Positions 8,051-64,000 of a stretch of DNA of 64,000 nucleotides are shown here, one piece after another (positions within the stretch are counted from its first letter, which is position 1; each line of letters opens with the position of its first letter). The position numbers and the translations under genes are program-made. Where the stretch lies: positions 5,865,001 through 5,929,000 of the forward strand of contig NZ_AP025667.1 of NCBI RefSeq assembly GCF_022846655.1, in the 5' to 3' direction. Below the pieces are notes generated by a model that was not told the origin of the DNA, searched no databases, and saw only the letters and a list, made by a program, of their open reading frames with translations. This stretch comes from Streptomyces seoulensis. GTDB taxonomy: Bacteria > Actinomycetota > Actinomycetes > Streptomycetales > Streptomycetaceae.

Positions 8051-9280
8051 TCACACCTCGGGCGACGCCATCAGGGCGGCCGCGGTGAAGAGTTCGACGC
8101 CGACCGTGATCGCGTTCTCGTCCGCGTCGAAGTCGCCCTGGTGCAGATCGCGTACGGTCCGCTCGCCGGGGCGGCGGACGCCGAGGCGGGCCATGGCGCC
8201 GGGCACGTGCTCCAGGTACCAGGAGAAGTCCTCGCCGCCGAGGCTCTGCTCGGTGCTCTCCACCGAGTCCAGCCCGCAGCGGGTGACCATCGCGCGGCGT
8301 AGCAGCTCGGCGGAGTCGCGGTCGTTGACGACCGGCGGCACTCCGCGCACGTAGGTGATCTCCGACTTGGCGCCGTGCAGGGTGGCGACCTCGTCGATCG
8401 CGGCGTGCACGACGTCGGGCGCGTCCCGCCAGGCGTCGAGGTCCAGGCAGCGGACGGTGCCGGAGAGTTCGGCGTGCTGCGGGATGACGTTGGGTGCGTG
8501 GCCCGACTCGATACGGCCCCAGGTCAGGGCGAGTCCGCTGCGGGTGTCGACGCGGCGGGCGATCAGCGCGGGCACGTCGGTGGCGACGCGGGCGGCGGCC
8601 GTGACCAGGTCGGTGGTCAGGTGCGGGCGGGCGGTGTGGCCGCCGGGGCCGTCCAGGGCGACGTCGAGGCGGTCGCAGGCGCTGGTGATGGGGCCGTGTC
8701 GGAGGCCGATCCTGCCGCACTCCACGCGGGGGTCGCAGTGCAGGGCGAGGATGCGGCCGACGCCTTCGAGCGCGCCGTCGGCGATGGCGGTCAGGGCGCC
8801 GCCGGGGAGCTGCTCCTCGGCGGGCTGGAAGATCAGCCGCACCGGGCGGGACAGCAGCCCCTTGGCGTGCAGGTCGGCGAGGACCAGGCCGGCGCCGAGC
8901 ACGACGGTGGTGTGCACGTCGTGGCCGCAGGCGTGGGCGCGGTCGGGCACGGTGGACCGGTACGGGCAGTCCTTGGTGTCCGGGATGGGCAGCGCGTCGA
9001 TGTCGGCGCGCAGGGCCAGCAGCGACACGTCGGAGCGCTGCTCGCCCTCGATGTGCCCGATGTCGCAGATGAGCCCGGTTCCGGTGACCAGGACGCGGGG
9101 CTTGAGCCCGGCCCGCTCCAGCCGCTCCTTGATGGCGGCGGTGGTACGGAACTCCTGGTTGCCCAGCTCGGGGTGCATGTGCAAGTCGCGCCGGAAGGCT
9201 ACGAGTTCAGCGTGCAGTGACTCGCTGAGCGCGCCGGGGAGCACAGCACCGGGGAGGTCGGCCACGGTCTCTCGGGTCAT
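8051..9280 (-). CDS. M20-family amidohydrolase (N-acyl amino acid / indole-acetyl-amino acid type)
   Basis: A 409-residue cytosolic metallopeptidase-fold amidohydrolase, most like the IAA-amino acid/hippurate hydrolase group of M20D. Metal-binding and catalytic motifs are visible: the HMHPELGNQE segment near the N-terminus, HACGHDVHTT, and the EEQLPGGA stretch containing the catalytic Glu. ATG 9280 (MTRETV) is preferred because GAGGGT lies 10 bases upstream; GTG 9292 is an alternative giving four more residues. The gene is single, with its own terminator, and faces away from the methyltransferase. The physiological substrate cannot be read from the sequence. Confidence 0.85.
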   Translation of the reverse strand: MTRETVADLPGAVLPGALSESLHAELVAFRRDLHMHPELGNQEFRTTAAIKERLERAGLKPRVLVTGTGLICDIGHIEGEQRSDVSLLALRADIDALPIPDTKDCPYRSTVPDRAHACGHDVHTTVVLGAGLVLADLHAKGLLSRPVRLIFQPAEEQLPGGALTAIADGALEGVGRILALHCDPRVECGRIGLRHGPITSACDRLDVALDGPGGHTARPHLTTDLVTAAARVATDVPALIARRVDTRSGLALTWGRIESGHAPNVIPQHAELSGTVRCLDLDAWRDAPDVVHAAIDEVATLHGAKSEITYVRGVPPVVNDRDSAELLRRAMVTRCGLDSVESTEQSLGGEDFSWYLEHVPGAMARLGVRRPGERTVRDLHQGDFDADENAITVGVELFTAAALMASPEV

Positions 9281-60935: not shown

Positions 60936-62258
60936 TCAGTCCAGCGCCGCGTTCCCGTCGTCGTCACAGTTCATGCCGGGCGGGCAGAACCAGGCGAGCG
61001 CGGTGGTGAGGAGCTCCAGCTCGTCGTCCCGGCCGTCGGCGTCGGCGCCGTACGCGGCGAGTGCGTAGATCTTGCCGTCGGAGGCGACGAACCGCTCGTC
61101 GTAGACGTGCCAGGTGCCGACCTCGGGCTCGTCCCGGATCGTGTCGGCCAGGTACTCCAGGCGCGATCCGGTGAAGTCGCCCTCGTCGAGGTTGCGCAGC
61201 GACAGTTGCTCGAAGCCGCGGGGCTTGGCCGTCTCGGGCGACAGGTACAGCTCGAAGGAGGCGTCCGGGGAGGCTTCCGACACCTCGTACACCTGGAGCC
61301 TGCGCTCACGGTCGGGGCTGCGGAAGTTGACCACGGAGATGCCGTGCTCGGAGGGGACCGAGGCACGCGTCCACCCCTCGGGCACGGCGGTCCGGAACCC
61401 CTCGGAGTCGTCGCGCACCGCGTATCCGGCGGGCGGGCCGCTGGGCGAGGGGGAGGGGGAGGGGCTCGGGTCCGCGGAGGTCTCCTGGGCGGACGTCGCC
61501 GGGGCGGAGGGGGTGCGCCGGGCGACGGGGCCCCGGTCGTCGGAGTCGTCCTTGCCGACGACCAGCGCCAGGACGAGGCTCACCGCGACCCCGGCCGCCG
61601 CCGCACCGACGATCACCGACCAGAGGACACGGCGGCTCGGGCCCTTGGCGGGGGGCTCGGAGGGCTCGGAGAGATCGACGGGGGGCCAGTCGGCGGTGGT
61701 CGAGGCCGGGTCGGTCGACGGCCAGGGGGCGGTCGGGGGCGCGGGGTGATCCGCGGGCGGCCAGGCGGCGGTCGGGGACTGACCGGCGGGGGGCCAGGGG
61801 GCGGCCGGGGGCGCCGGGGAGTCGTCGGCGGGGGGCCAAGCGGGGGCCGGGAGCCCCTGGGACTCACCGGCGGGGGGCCAGGCAGGGGCCGGAGGCGCCG
61901 AGGACTCACCGGCGGGCGGCCAGGCAGGGGCCGGAGGCGCGGAGGACTCACCGGCGGGGGGCCAGGCGGGGGCCGGAGGCGCGGTGGGCCGGTCGACCGA
62001 CGGCCTCTCGGCGGCCGGAGACTCCCCGGAGTCTCCGGCGCGCGGCCAGTCGGAGGCCGGAGGCGTCGGGGCCGGGTCGGCGGGCGACTGCTCGGAGGCG
62101 GCGGGCTCCCGCGGCTCGCCGGCCGGCGGCCACGCGGGGCGCGTCGGCGGGGCGTGGTCCGGCCGGGGCGGCGGCGTGGCCCCCGCCGCGCCGCCCGCTC
62201 CCGCGCCTTCCTCCCAGCGCTGAGTGTCCTCGTTCCAGTACCGCTCTCCCCCGCTCAT
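60936..62258 (-). CDS. Pro-rich membrane protein with extracellular domain (unknown)
   Basis: A 440-residue protein. The first ~205 residues are a Pro/Ala/Trp-rich cytoplasmic arm containing tandem PAWPPAGES-type units (see the repeat feature), followed by a basic GPSRRVLWS segment and one transmembrane helix (about residues 207-235). A Ser/Pro linker and an extracellular ~150-residue domain (GYAVRDDSEGFRTAVPEGW ... WFCPPGMNCDDDG) follow. The layout is like Ser/Thr-kinase sensors without kinase. ATG 62258 has GGAGGGGGG upstream. Function unknown. Confidence 0.78.
   Translation of the reverse strand: MSGGERYWNEDTQRWEEGAGAGGAAGATPPPRPDHAPPTRPAWPPAGEPREPAASEQSPADPAPTPPASDWPRAGDSGESPAAERPSVDRPTAPPAPAWPPAGESSAPPAPAWPPAGESSAPPAPAWPPAGESQGLPAPAWPPADDSPAPPAAPWPPAGQSPTAAWPPADHPAPPTAPWPSTDPASTTADWPPVDLSEPSEPPAKGPSRRVLWSVIVGAAAAGVAVSLVLALVVGKDDSDDRGPVARRTPSAPATSAQETSADPSPSPSPSPSGPPAGYAVRDDSEGFRTAVPEGWTRASVPSEHGISVVNFRSPDRERRLQVYEVSEASPDASFELYLSPETAKPRGFEQLSLRNLDEGDFTGSRLEYLADTIRDEPEVGTWHVYDERFVASDGKIYALAAYGADADGRDDELELLTTALAWFCPPGMNCDDDGNAALD
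61861..61986 (-). repeat. Three 42-bp tandem repeats coding PPAPAWPPAGESSA-like units
   Basis: Units start at 61861, 61903 and 61945 with GACTCACCGG and differ by few bases; degenerate copies extend leftwards to about 61700. They encode 14-residue Pro/Ala/Trp repeats in the cytoplasmic arm of the 440-residue protein. Copy number probably varies between strains. Confidence 0.85.
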
Positions 62259-62283: not shown

Positions 62284-62631
62284 TCACATTCCGAGCAGTC
62301 CGGCCACGGCACCCGCCGAGGCGAGCACGCTGAGCAGGGCCTGGGAGTCGTCCAGCGACTGACGCAGGCGCTCCCGGCGGGTGGGGCCCGCCTGGCCGGT
62401 ACGGGCGATCTCGGCCTCGGTCTCGGCGAGCGCCTCGTCCAGCGCGGCCGTCTGCTCGGTGCTCCGCACCCGCTCCAGGTCGGCCCGCAACTCCTTCACC
62501 GCTTGGAGGAGTTCCCGGTCGGCCGGTGCGCCCGTGCCGTGGTGGTGGCTCTCGGCGCGGGCGTGGCTGCCGATGGCGAAGGTGCTCCCCGACACGTCCC
62601 CGATGCGTACGTTCGGCTCCTCACCGGTCAT
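62284..62631 (-). CDS. Small coiled-coil protein with N-terminal IGxVxGSTFA motif
   Basis: A 115-residue protein of unknown function. The N-terminus carries VRIGDVSGSTFAIGSHA (residues 8-24), followed by a His-rich spot (ESHHHG). A long helical stretch likely to form a coiled coil spans about residues 38-95. The last ~17 residues (LLSVLASAGAVAGLLGM) are hydrophobic and Gly/Ala-rich, possibly membrane-interacting. ATG 62631 overlaps the TGA of the upstream gene, and the two share the motif. Confidence 0.75.
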   Translation of the reverse strand: MTGEEPNVRIGDVSGSTFAIGSHARAESHHHGTGAPADRELLQAVKELRADLERVRSTEQTAALDEALAETEAEIARTGQAGPTRRERLRQSLDDSQALLSVLASAGAVAGLLGM

Positions 62632-64000
62632 GTCCCGGCTCCCTTCTGCGGCGCGGGCGCGGGCGCGCCCGTCGCGGATGCGTGGCTGCCGACCGCGAAG
62701 GTGCTGCCCTCGACCCGGCCGATGTGCACGTCACCGTTGCTGATGTTGACGACCTTGCGGACGAACTCGCCCGTCTCGTAACCGGATTCGGCGAGCGCGG
62801 ACCGTACGCCGTCGGCCACCCGGTCCTGCACGCCCCGCAGATAGCGGGCGACGTCCATCTCCTGGAACAGCGAGCCGACGGGCGTGGAGCCCAGTTCGCG
62901 CACCGAGAGGGCGGGGCCGTCCGGGAGGGCGCCCGCGTAGCCGCCGGTCAGCAGCCGCCACCCGTACACCAGGCCCCGGCCGAGCTGGGCGAGGGCGCGG
63001 CCCGCCGAGCCCGGTACCAGGACGAGGGCGGTGACGGCCTTGCCGAGGGCGTTGTTGTTGCGGAACCGGTGGGCCGTCCGGTCGGCGTCCTTGAAGTCCT
63101 CGCGCACCGGCGTCAGCACGTGCGGGGCGATCTCCAGCATCAGCATGCCGCCCTGGGTGTGGACCCGGACGTACACGGTGACGACCAGTTCCTCCTCCCA
63201 GCCGCCGACCCGCACGCGCAGGAAGTGCCGCCGCTTCTCGGCGCCCTCCTCCACCGCCCGCGCCCGGTGCTCCTCGAACGCCTGCGGGGTGTACGGGGCC
63301 TGGTCACGGGTGAGCAGCCCCTCCACCGGGAGGAACACGCACTCGTCGATCTCCAGCCGGCGCAGCCGGTCCCGGACGCCGGGGCCCGCGTACTCGGCCG
63401 GGACCCGCAACTGCTCCAGCCGGGGCCGGATCTTCTCCAGGATCGCCCGGTTGCTGAGCGGCTGCCGCTCCTTCCTCAGCTCGTCCGGCTTGAGTTCGAC
63501 GGCCAGCACCCAGGTGTCGTACGCGTCTCCGGCGCCGCAGAACGGGCGTGCCTCGTGGTACATGACCAGCGGGGCGTGCTGCTCCAGCCGGACGCGCCGG
63601 CCCAGCCGCTGGAAGCGGGGGCCCGGTGCCTGCTCGGCGGGGTCGGAGGCGACGTCCGGGAAGCGCCGCGGGGAGAGCTCGGCCGCCAGGGCCCGGCTGA
63701 ACTGGGTGCGCTGGGCATGGACGCACACCGCGATCAGCGCGAGCACGACCAGCGCGAACCACGCCTGCCAGACCTCCACGGCGGGGCTGAGCGAGTCGGA
63801 GAAGTCCTCGGGGCTGCCGTACCCGTACGGGTCGTACGCCGGCTCGTCGGACGCGCCCCCGCCGAACGCGGAGAAGACGGTGAGGACGAACAGCGCGGCG
63901 AACCACGCGCGGCCCCACCACCGCGCCAGGAAGGCGAGGACCAGGCGGTACAGCGGCGGCCGTTCGGCCCGCCCGCGCAGCCACGGGGCGAGCGCGAGCC
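62628..64000 (-). CDS. Membrane protein with C-terminal IGxVxGSTFA motif, cut by right edge
   Basis: The frame is open to the right edge; the ATG-like GTG at 63779 is internal because LALAPWLRGRAERPPLYRLV and further residues precede it in frame. At least two transmembrane segments (WGRAWFAALFVLTVFSAF and WFALVVLALIAVCVHA) are followed by a ~380-residue cytosolic part with mixed helices and strands. The last 35 residues contain VHIGRVEGSTFAVGSHA (about 62679-62729) and a Pro/Ala tail. The stop overlaps the start of the small gene. No known domain was recognised. Confidence 0.75.
   Translation of the reverse strand, partial: LALAPWLRGRAERPPLYRLVLAFLARWWGRAWFAALFVLTVFSAFGGGASDEPAYDPYGYGSPEDFSDSLSPAVEVWQAWFALVVLALIAVCVHAQRTQFSRALAAELSPRRFPDVASDPAEQAPGPRFQRLGRRVRLEQHAPLVMYHEARPFCGAGDAYDTWVLAVELKPDELRKERQPLSNRAILEKIRPRLEQLRVPAEYAGPGVRDRLRRLEIDECVFLPVEGLLTRDQAPYTPQAFEEHRARAVEEGAEKRRHFLRVRVGGWEEELVVTVYVRVHTQGGMLMLEIAPHVLTPVREDFKDADRTAHRFRNNNALGKAVTALVLVPGSAGRALAQLGRGLVYGWRLLTGGYAGALPDGPALSVRELGSTPVGSLFQEMDVARYLRGVQDRVADGVRSALAESGYETGEFVRKVVNISNGDVHIGRVEGSTFAVGSHASATGAPAPAPQKGAGT

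Follow-up and report, generated by a model that had tools for sequence, protein, structure and literature searches.

We analysed 64,000 nucleotides of Streptomyces seoulensis DNA (GCF_022846655.1, NZ_AP025667.1, positions 5,865,001–5,929,000 of the forward strand), called here the window. At its right end, two overlapping genes encode a membrane protein, M, and a small helical protein, S. M carries a short motif near its C-terminus, and S carries a matching motif near its N-terminus. Comparison of the sequences of relatives shows that the motif of M agrees with that of its own S and that the two vary jointly. On this ground, assembly of M with S through the motif is very probable. Templating of a cross-beta structure through the motif has about an even chance of being the way in which this happens. 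The wider reading, in which M-S is a two-gene homotypic-motif assembly module resembling the bacterial amyloid signalling sequences (BASS) and having an amyloid-type signalling outcome, is just as finely balanced. It is doubtful that S is a membrane-acting executor. Three genes, M, S and a further gene T, follow one another on the minus strand. The full-length M in the genome has 571 amino acids, and its gene continues for about 343 nucleotides beyond the end of the window. The features are as follows.

62628–64000, minus strand: gene of the membrane protein M (C-terminal 456 amino acids in the window; core conserved among relatives)
62284–62631, minus strand: gene of S, 115 amino acids, motif and helical body (from the reading frame, homologues and model)
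62628–62631, minus strand: ATGA overlap of the M stop and the S start (M stop at 62628)
62679–62729, minus strand: M copy of the motif, VHIGRVEGSTFAVGSHA, near the M C-terminus
62560–62610, minus strand: S copy of the motif, VRIGDVSGSTFAIGSHA, S residues 8–24
62287–62526, minus strand: helical body of S, residues 36–115, putative remote relative of DUF5955 (PF19380)
62287–62343, minus strand: hydrophobic C-terminal segment of S, residues 97–115, mean Kyte–Doolittle hydropathy 1.68
60936–62258, minus strand: gene of T, third of the cluster, 440 amino acids, proline-rich, with one hydrophobic segment as read from the sequence

The Motif Match in the Window

An earlier sequence-only reading had proposed that the C-terminal motif of M and the N-terminal motif of S are identical at 13 of 17 residues, and that the genes overlap by ATGA. 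Both claims were borne out. The local alignment of the M tail with S scores 80, while 20,000 shuffles gave a mean of 26.6 and a maximum of 59, and a Gumbel fit puts the chance probability at about 5e-7. The 56 successive same-strand gene pairs of the window score 39 at most (the M-S pair was missed by the gene caller and is not among the 56). The M copy had been placed correctly; the start of the S copy had been given approximately, as 62554, and lies at 62560. The similarity between the two proteins is limited to the motif. The shared stretch comprises 17 residues with weaker flanks, and the control comparison of the M core with the S body showed a slight excess at most.

Covariation of the Motifs

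We collected 231 M proteins with a tail. An S was identified by profile in 211 cases and assigned by codon composition in 18, and two lay at contig ends. The covariation test used 184 of the 191 distinct rows, in 170 clusters. The rows left aside were five M proteins for which no S was found (L198, L203, L222, L147 and L228), one spurious frame (L019), and L242, where a rule based on G+C content at third codon positions had chosen the wrong frame and the match is visible nonetheless.

The check proposed in the sequence-only reading, that the motif covaries within pairs and diverges between them, was passed strongly. Over the 170 clusters, the mean score of M with its own S was 71.3, and that with shuffled partners was 43.3. 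None of the 2000 shuffles reached the own-pair score at any of the six clustering levels. The shuffles ignore relatedness, and the deep clusters therefore give the safer figure: in the 10 deepest clusters (M core below 45% identity) the means were 72.1 and 35.5, again with 0 of 2000 shuffles reaching the former. In this deepest set the own M was the best match for 9 of the 10 S proteins, and the own S for 8 of the 10 M proteins. When the 184 pairs were scored singly, 147 reached at least 60, 31 fell at 45–59 and six fell below 45. L112 and L080 are among these six; L112 had been read in the wrong frame, at a contig end, and in the other five the match is still visible.

We also compared distances between motifs in the 182 pairs that remain without L112 and L080, the latter having been set aside without need. 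The distances among M motifs and among S motifs correlated with r 0.85. After the M-core and S-body distances were taken out, the partial r was 0.71, against a permutation maximum of 0.12; the motif windows were placed using the own-pair alignment, which may slightly favour agreement. Within the clade of the window by itself, the partial r was 0.67 (113 pairs).

In distant pairs, the motifs are wholly different and yet matched within the pair. M and S, respectively, read NVQNQPGA and NVQNQPGA in L246, MTGPVQATPFS and MTAPAQVAPFS in L247, ISGNNTFAVG and ISGNNTFAVG in L041, and SGGSIQAESLAVG and SGGRIEAGALAVG in L293. DVQNQPGA and NIQNQPHA form the pair in L301, and a GN(V/A/I)QTGD-like type occurs in both partners of L237, L238 and L240. 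Smaller changes are shared as well. One motif residue is deleted on both sides in L016, GRADNSSFAFG stands in both partners of L052, and L013 has GRADNSSFAFG and GRADNSAFAFG. In L018 and L020, the M motif reads GNVTLG and the S motif GNVTIG. Some proteins with the SGGAVA type contain the motif twice, as in the S head of L199 and the M tail of L021, which recalls the two pseudo-repeats of HET-s.

A motif profile (A5) was built from 14 motif pieces of the commoner types only and searched in 61 relatives. At E ≤ 0.05, hits were obtained in 15 genomes, 26 in all, and 25 fell in M or S. The remaining hit (L325) is a different membrane protein, encoded at 8336–9376 of L339 (genome G021), with the C-terminal motif VHINRVDSSALSIGDHGSATHH; it adjoins a gene of an Mrr-type restriction endonuclease. 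In the 19 kb of the L339 region, there was no successive gene pair with a common motif.

Predicted Structure of M and S

The AlphaFold2 model of P0176, which is 98% identical to the window M over a 411-amino-acid query, has a low overall confidence (mean predicted local distance difference test score, pLDDT, 61). It contains four long hydrophobic helices at about residues 68–101, 107–123, 131–159 and 191–222, which are mostly confident; the sequence-only reading had counted at least two. The helices are followed by an alpha/beta core and then by the motif, with pLDDT below 50 from residue 532 onward. The loop between helices 3 and 4 has no K/R and seven D/E, the loop between helices 2 and 3 has two K/R and one D/E, the part after helix four has eight K/R and six D/E, and the first 67 residues have five K/R and eight D/E. 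This charge distribution weakly suggests that both ends of M lie in the cytosol. There was no match of note to M in Pfam, NCBIfam or PADLOC. No NB-ARC or NACHT match was found among the M and S proteins scanned, and M is thus no NOD-like receptor (NLR).

In the model of S, pLDDT is below 50 at residues 1–5 and 7–32, and the chain is helical thereafter. The start of S has no signal peptide-like features. The hydrophobic tail that had been read in S is indeed present, since the helical body ends in a stretch whose top 19-mer hydropathy is the value given above. Structure prediction, by which the motif might have turned out to be a buried strand of a known fold, placed it in low-confidence segments of both models instead. 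The motif thus probably lies in flexible ends of M and S, as far as the models go.

The window S matched PF19380 with 11 bits, whereas Pfam sets its cut-off at 27.1; ten further S proteins were scanned, and those of L237 (47 bits) and L150 (32.3 bits) exceeded this value. By way of these distant homologues, the S body appears to be a remote relative of DUF5955. At 24 canonical DUF5955 loci (L249–L272) there was neither a motif nor an M within 1.5 kb on either side, and the sole profile hit among them was at chance level (E 0.0094). We found no mention of DUF5955 in the literature searched. Seven loci (L309/L346, L295, L296, L303, L304, L305 and L310) have a conserved M paralogue that lacks the motif tail and has no S next to it; of these, L309/L346 is in the genome of the window itself (G000:C1:2197013-2198404). 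Motif-less solo relatives thus exist in both families, which hints that the pair may have come about by addition of the motif.

Distribution and Gene Neighbourhood

At E ≤ 1e-5, the M profile A1, made of 17 rows, matched 215 of the 295 genomes sampled from the genus. By our count, 131 of these matches are stronger than 1e-30, and motif-less paralogues may be among the 84 weaker ones. Across the phylum, A1 matched 7 of 296 genomes at E ≤ 0.001. Of 346 phylum genomes, 15 matched a profile of distant M proteins (A4), and they belong to 6 of 218 genera; two of these matches are marginal, and several loci have the motif-less paralogue only. Within the genus the M-S pair is present in many genomes, and it is also found in other families of actinobacteria. 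Matched pairs outside the genus are L244 (g15), L273–L276 (family f86) and L293 (G344, outside the class). All 17 strong S matches (E < 1e-5) sit behind an M.

The C-terminal domain of T matched TIGR03931 below threshold. T follows S at all 90 close loci, 49 of 55 intermediate loci and none of the five distant loci. The absence of T from distant modules indicates that M-S is the core and T an accessory. A malate dehydrogenase gene lies within 5 kb upstream at 69 of 89 close, 29 of 43 intermediate and 0 of 4 distant loci; by this neighbour, the main copy looks vertically inherited and the distant copies do not. The genome of the window has a second, divergent pair (L347, 103–2498) at about 6.398 Mb, with M NNIQIYGDNNAPIQNVVGNGNSNVGQ and S SGISIGGNNIAPLQNVVGQNISRVYQ. 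Genes of MobC-like and MobA/VirD2-type relaxases are located about 8 kb away from it, which suggests a mobile element.

Two further divergent pairs have neighbours of other kinds. At L343 (2–9757), the pair stands between a DruE-type helicase match (E 1.5e-87) and HEC-01A/B candidate defence genes, and at L342 (9887–12797) it is near a kinase, PP2C phosphatase and VWA gene set. The 10 neighbour genes scanned for defence matches were chosen by hand. When eight proteins were scanned against PADLOC-DB 2.0.0 with E values up to 1 allowed, neither M nor S nor T matched a profile.

Proposed Mechanism and Alternative Explanations

If M and S assemble through the motif, M would sit in the membrane by about four hydrophobic helices and display the motif on its flexible C-terminal tail, and the matching motif would be carried on the flexible N-terminus of the small helical S. 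M might be triggered by a signal at its acidic, glycine-rich loop or at the cytosolic core. The tails of triggered M could then cluster and nucleate an ordered beta assembly, and this assembly would recruit S via the same motif. In this way the S bodies, which are helical and in many cases have a hydrophobic helix at the C-terminus, would be gathered at the membrane. If BASS and amyloid signalling of the HET-S type are taken as analogues, the likeliest outcome would be a response of the membrane or one that decides the fate of the cell. The motif type would insulate one pair from another.

A number of observations weigh against this mechanism. At the finest clustering, the own M was the best match for only 31 of 170 S proteins; this is because relatives share motif types. 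The motifs of L043 and L010 have partly diverged. Motifs in one partner only, named beforehand as the refuting case, do occur, though rarely: L198, L203, L222 and L228 have an M with a motif-like tail and no adjoining S, and in L203 T comes straight after M. L147 has an M without S and without a clear motif, and in L340 (G499) there is no S in the roughly 320 nucleotides up to the contig end; at least five M loci lack S. The S bodies differ in hydropathy, and 84 of 184 reach 1.6. Defence neighbours were seen at a few distant loci only, as single cases without a background rate. A few pairs look recently homogenised at the DNA level: per-pair codon agreement at identical residues of the motif window (median 0.67) is at least 0.85 in 16 of 171 pairs and at least 0.95 in 6 of 171.

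Nor did direct comparison show a resemblance to the few amyloid motifs examined. We used one BASS3 peptide (from PMC8086366) and one BASS3-like archaeal peptide, and neither beat shuffled peptides; for the BASS3 peptide, compared on a third of the pairs, 102 of 300 shuffles matched the M-S motifs as well. The RHIM core is given as G-(I/V)-Q-(I/V)-G in the excerpt of PMC7885112, and the window motifs GSTFAVG and GSTFAIG are without it. The earlier suggestion of RHIM- or BASS-like amyloid signalling is partly supported: the terminal motifs are matched and covary, amyloid formation by the motif, an activated-receptor role of M and membrane disruption by S stay hypothetical, and no NLR, RHIM core or closeness to the BASS3 peptide was found.

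The strongest alternative, which we consider a serious contender though on the improbable side, is stoichiometric docking without amyloid. A small defined beta interface, such as a hairpin or arch, would hold S as a permanent subunit of an M complex, perhaps aided by the overlapping stop and start. The covariation suits any homotypic contact, the ATGA overlap of the two genes agrees with such a complex, and T also accompanies the pair at close loci. However, matching sequences on both partners would be a requirement of self-templating, and an ordinary interface would be unlikely to be self-similar over at least 17 residues across many unrelated motif types.

In a toxin–antitoxin-like arrangement, S would be a small membrane-active toxin kept inactive on M via the motif. 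The small overlapping partner with a hydrophobic tail and the pair-specific matching are in keeping with this, as is the fact that M without S exists, yet every strong S match had an M. On the other side, the motif-less solo relatives described above (24 DUF5955 and seven M-paralogue loci) are unexpected for a toxin family, and PADLOC gave no match for M or S. To our knowledge, M is also far larger than known antitoxins. We consider this explanation improbable.

Under concerted evolution alone, the two gene ends would form a repeat that arose by duplication and stays similar through exchange of DNA, with hardly any functional importance. This could account for the few homogenised pairs. It could also account for the Streptomyces pratensis database protein P0273, where a C-terminal portion of M leads via a single copy of the motif to a DUF5955 body; the join falls within the motif, as it would after recombination of the two copies. 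We consider this explanation very improbable: where residues are identical, the codons agree in 0.637 of positions within pairs and in 0.610 between loci, while codon usage predicts 0.575. In most pairs, the residues were kept while the synonymous sites drifted, which argues for selection on the protein. DNA exchange may renew the motif match at times, and P0273 may be an assembly or gene-call artefact.

Returning to a motif-assembly module of the amyloid type, a broader picture is conceivable, and we hold it less probable than the module itself: that the amyloid signalosomes of actinomycetes include a large family that needs no NLR and diversifies rapidly, in which M as a membrane receptor templates S, a small executor of DUF5955 type, via a private motif, with new types arising repeatedly and partners changing together. 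A 2021 review raises NLR-independent signalling amyloids in bacteria and fungi as an open question (PMC7889193, excerpt), and the M-S module is a direct, testable candidate for one. The collected pairs provide many natural motif types with known partners, a ready set for learning seeding specificity. The finding also offers an initial lead to the function of M and DUF5955, both uncharacterised as families, in industrially relevant bacteria. If the broader picture is true, bacteria would have a parallel to RHIM and HET-S signalling made from parts not previously linked to it.

Comparison with Known Systems

We found no description of the M-S pair in the literature searched, and the available parts of PMC7889193, PMC8086366, PMC12261475, PMC7885112 and PMC8195603 give no account of it; overlap with the unclassified pairs of the founding BASS paper (Dyrka et al. 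2020) is possible. DUF5955 is among the nearest described families, and the S body appears to be related to it, whereas canonical DUF5955 loci are without motif or M and the window S scores under the cut-off.

In HET-S/NWD2, HELLP/PNT1 and the RIPK1/RIPK3 RHIM system, assembly passes by way of a homotypic motif from a receptor to an executor that acts on the membrane, and the fungal partner genes are neighbours (excerpts of PMC7889193 and PMC7885112). Unlike these systems, as described there, M-S has no NLR, kinase or HeLo match and no RHIM core.

BASS pairs of filamentous bacteria consist of a BELL effector and an NLR receptor, encoded by adjacent or overlapping genes, with several matched motif families (PMC7889193, excerpt). 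Like BASS in that account, M and S share a motif between overlapping genes, with one copy near a C-terminus and the other near an N-terminus; there are several families of motif, each matched within its pair; the hosts are actinobacteria; and the helical partner has a hydrophobic helix. The shared motif of BASS pairs spans about 20–40 amino acids, as against the 17 residues with weaker flanks in the window. Unlike BASS, where an NLR receptor has the motif at its N-terminus, neither M nor S among the proteins scanned has an NB-ARC or NACHT domain. The N-terminal motif is on the small S, and the C-terminal motif, which in BASS belongs to the BELL effector, is on a membrane protein of about 570 amino acids. 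Since there is no NLR, we file the module as one working like BASS, and not as BASS.
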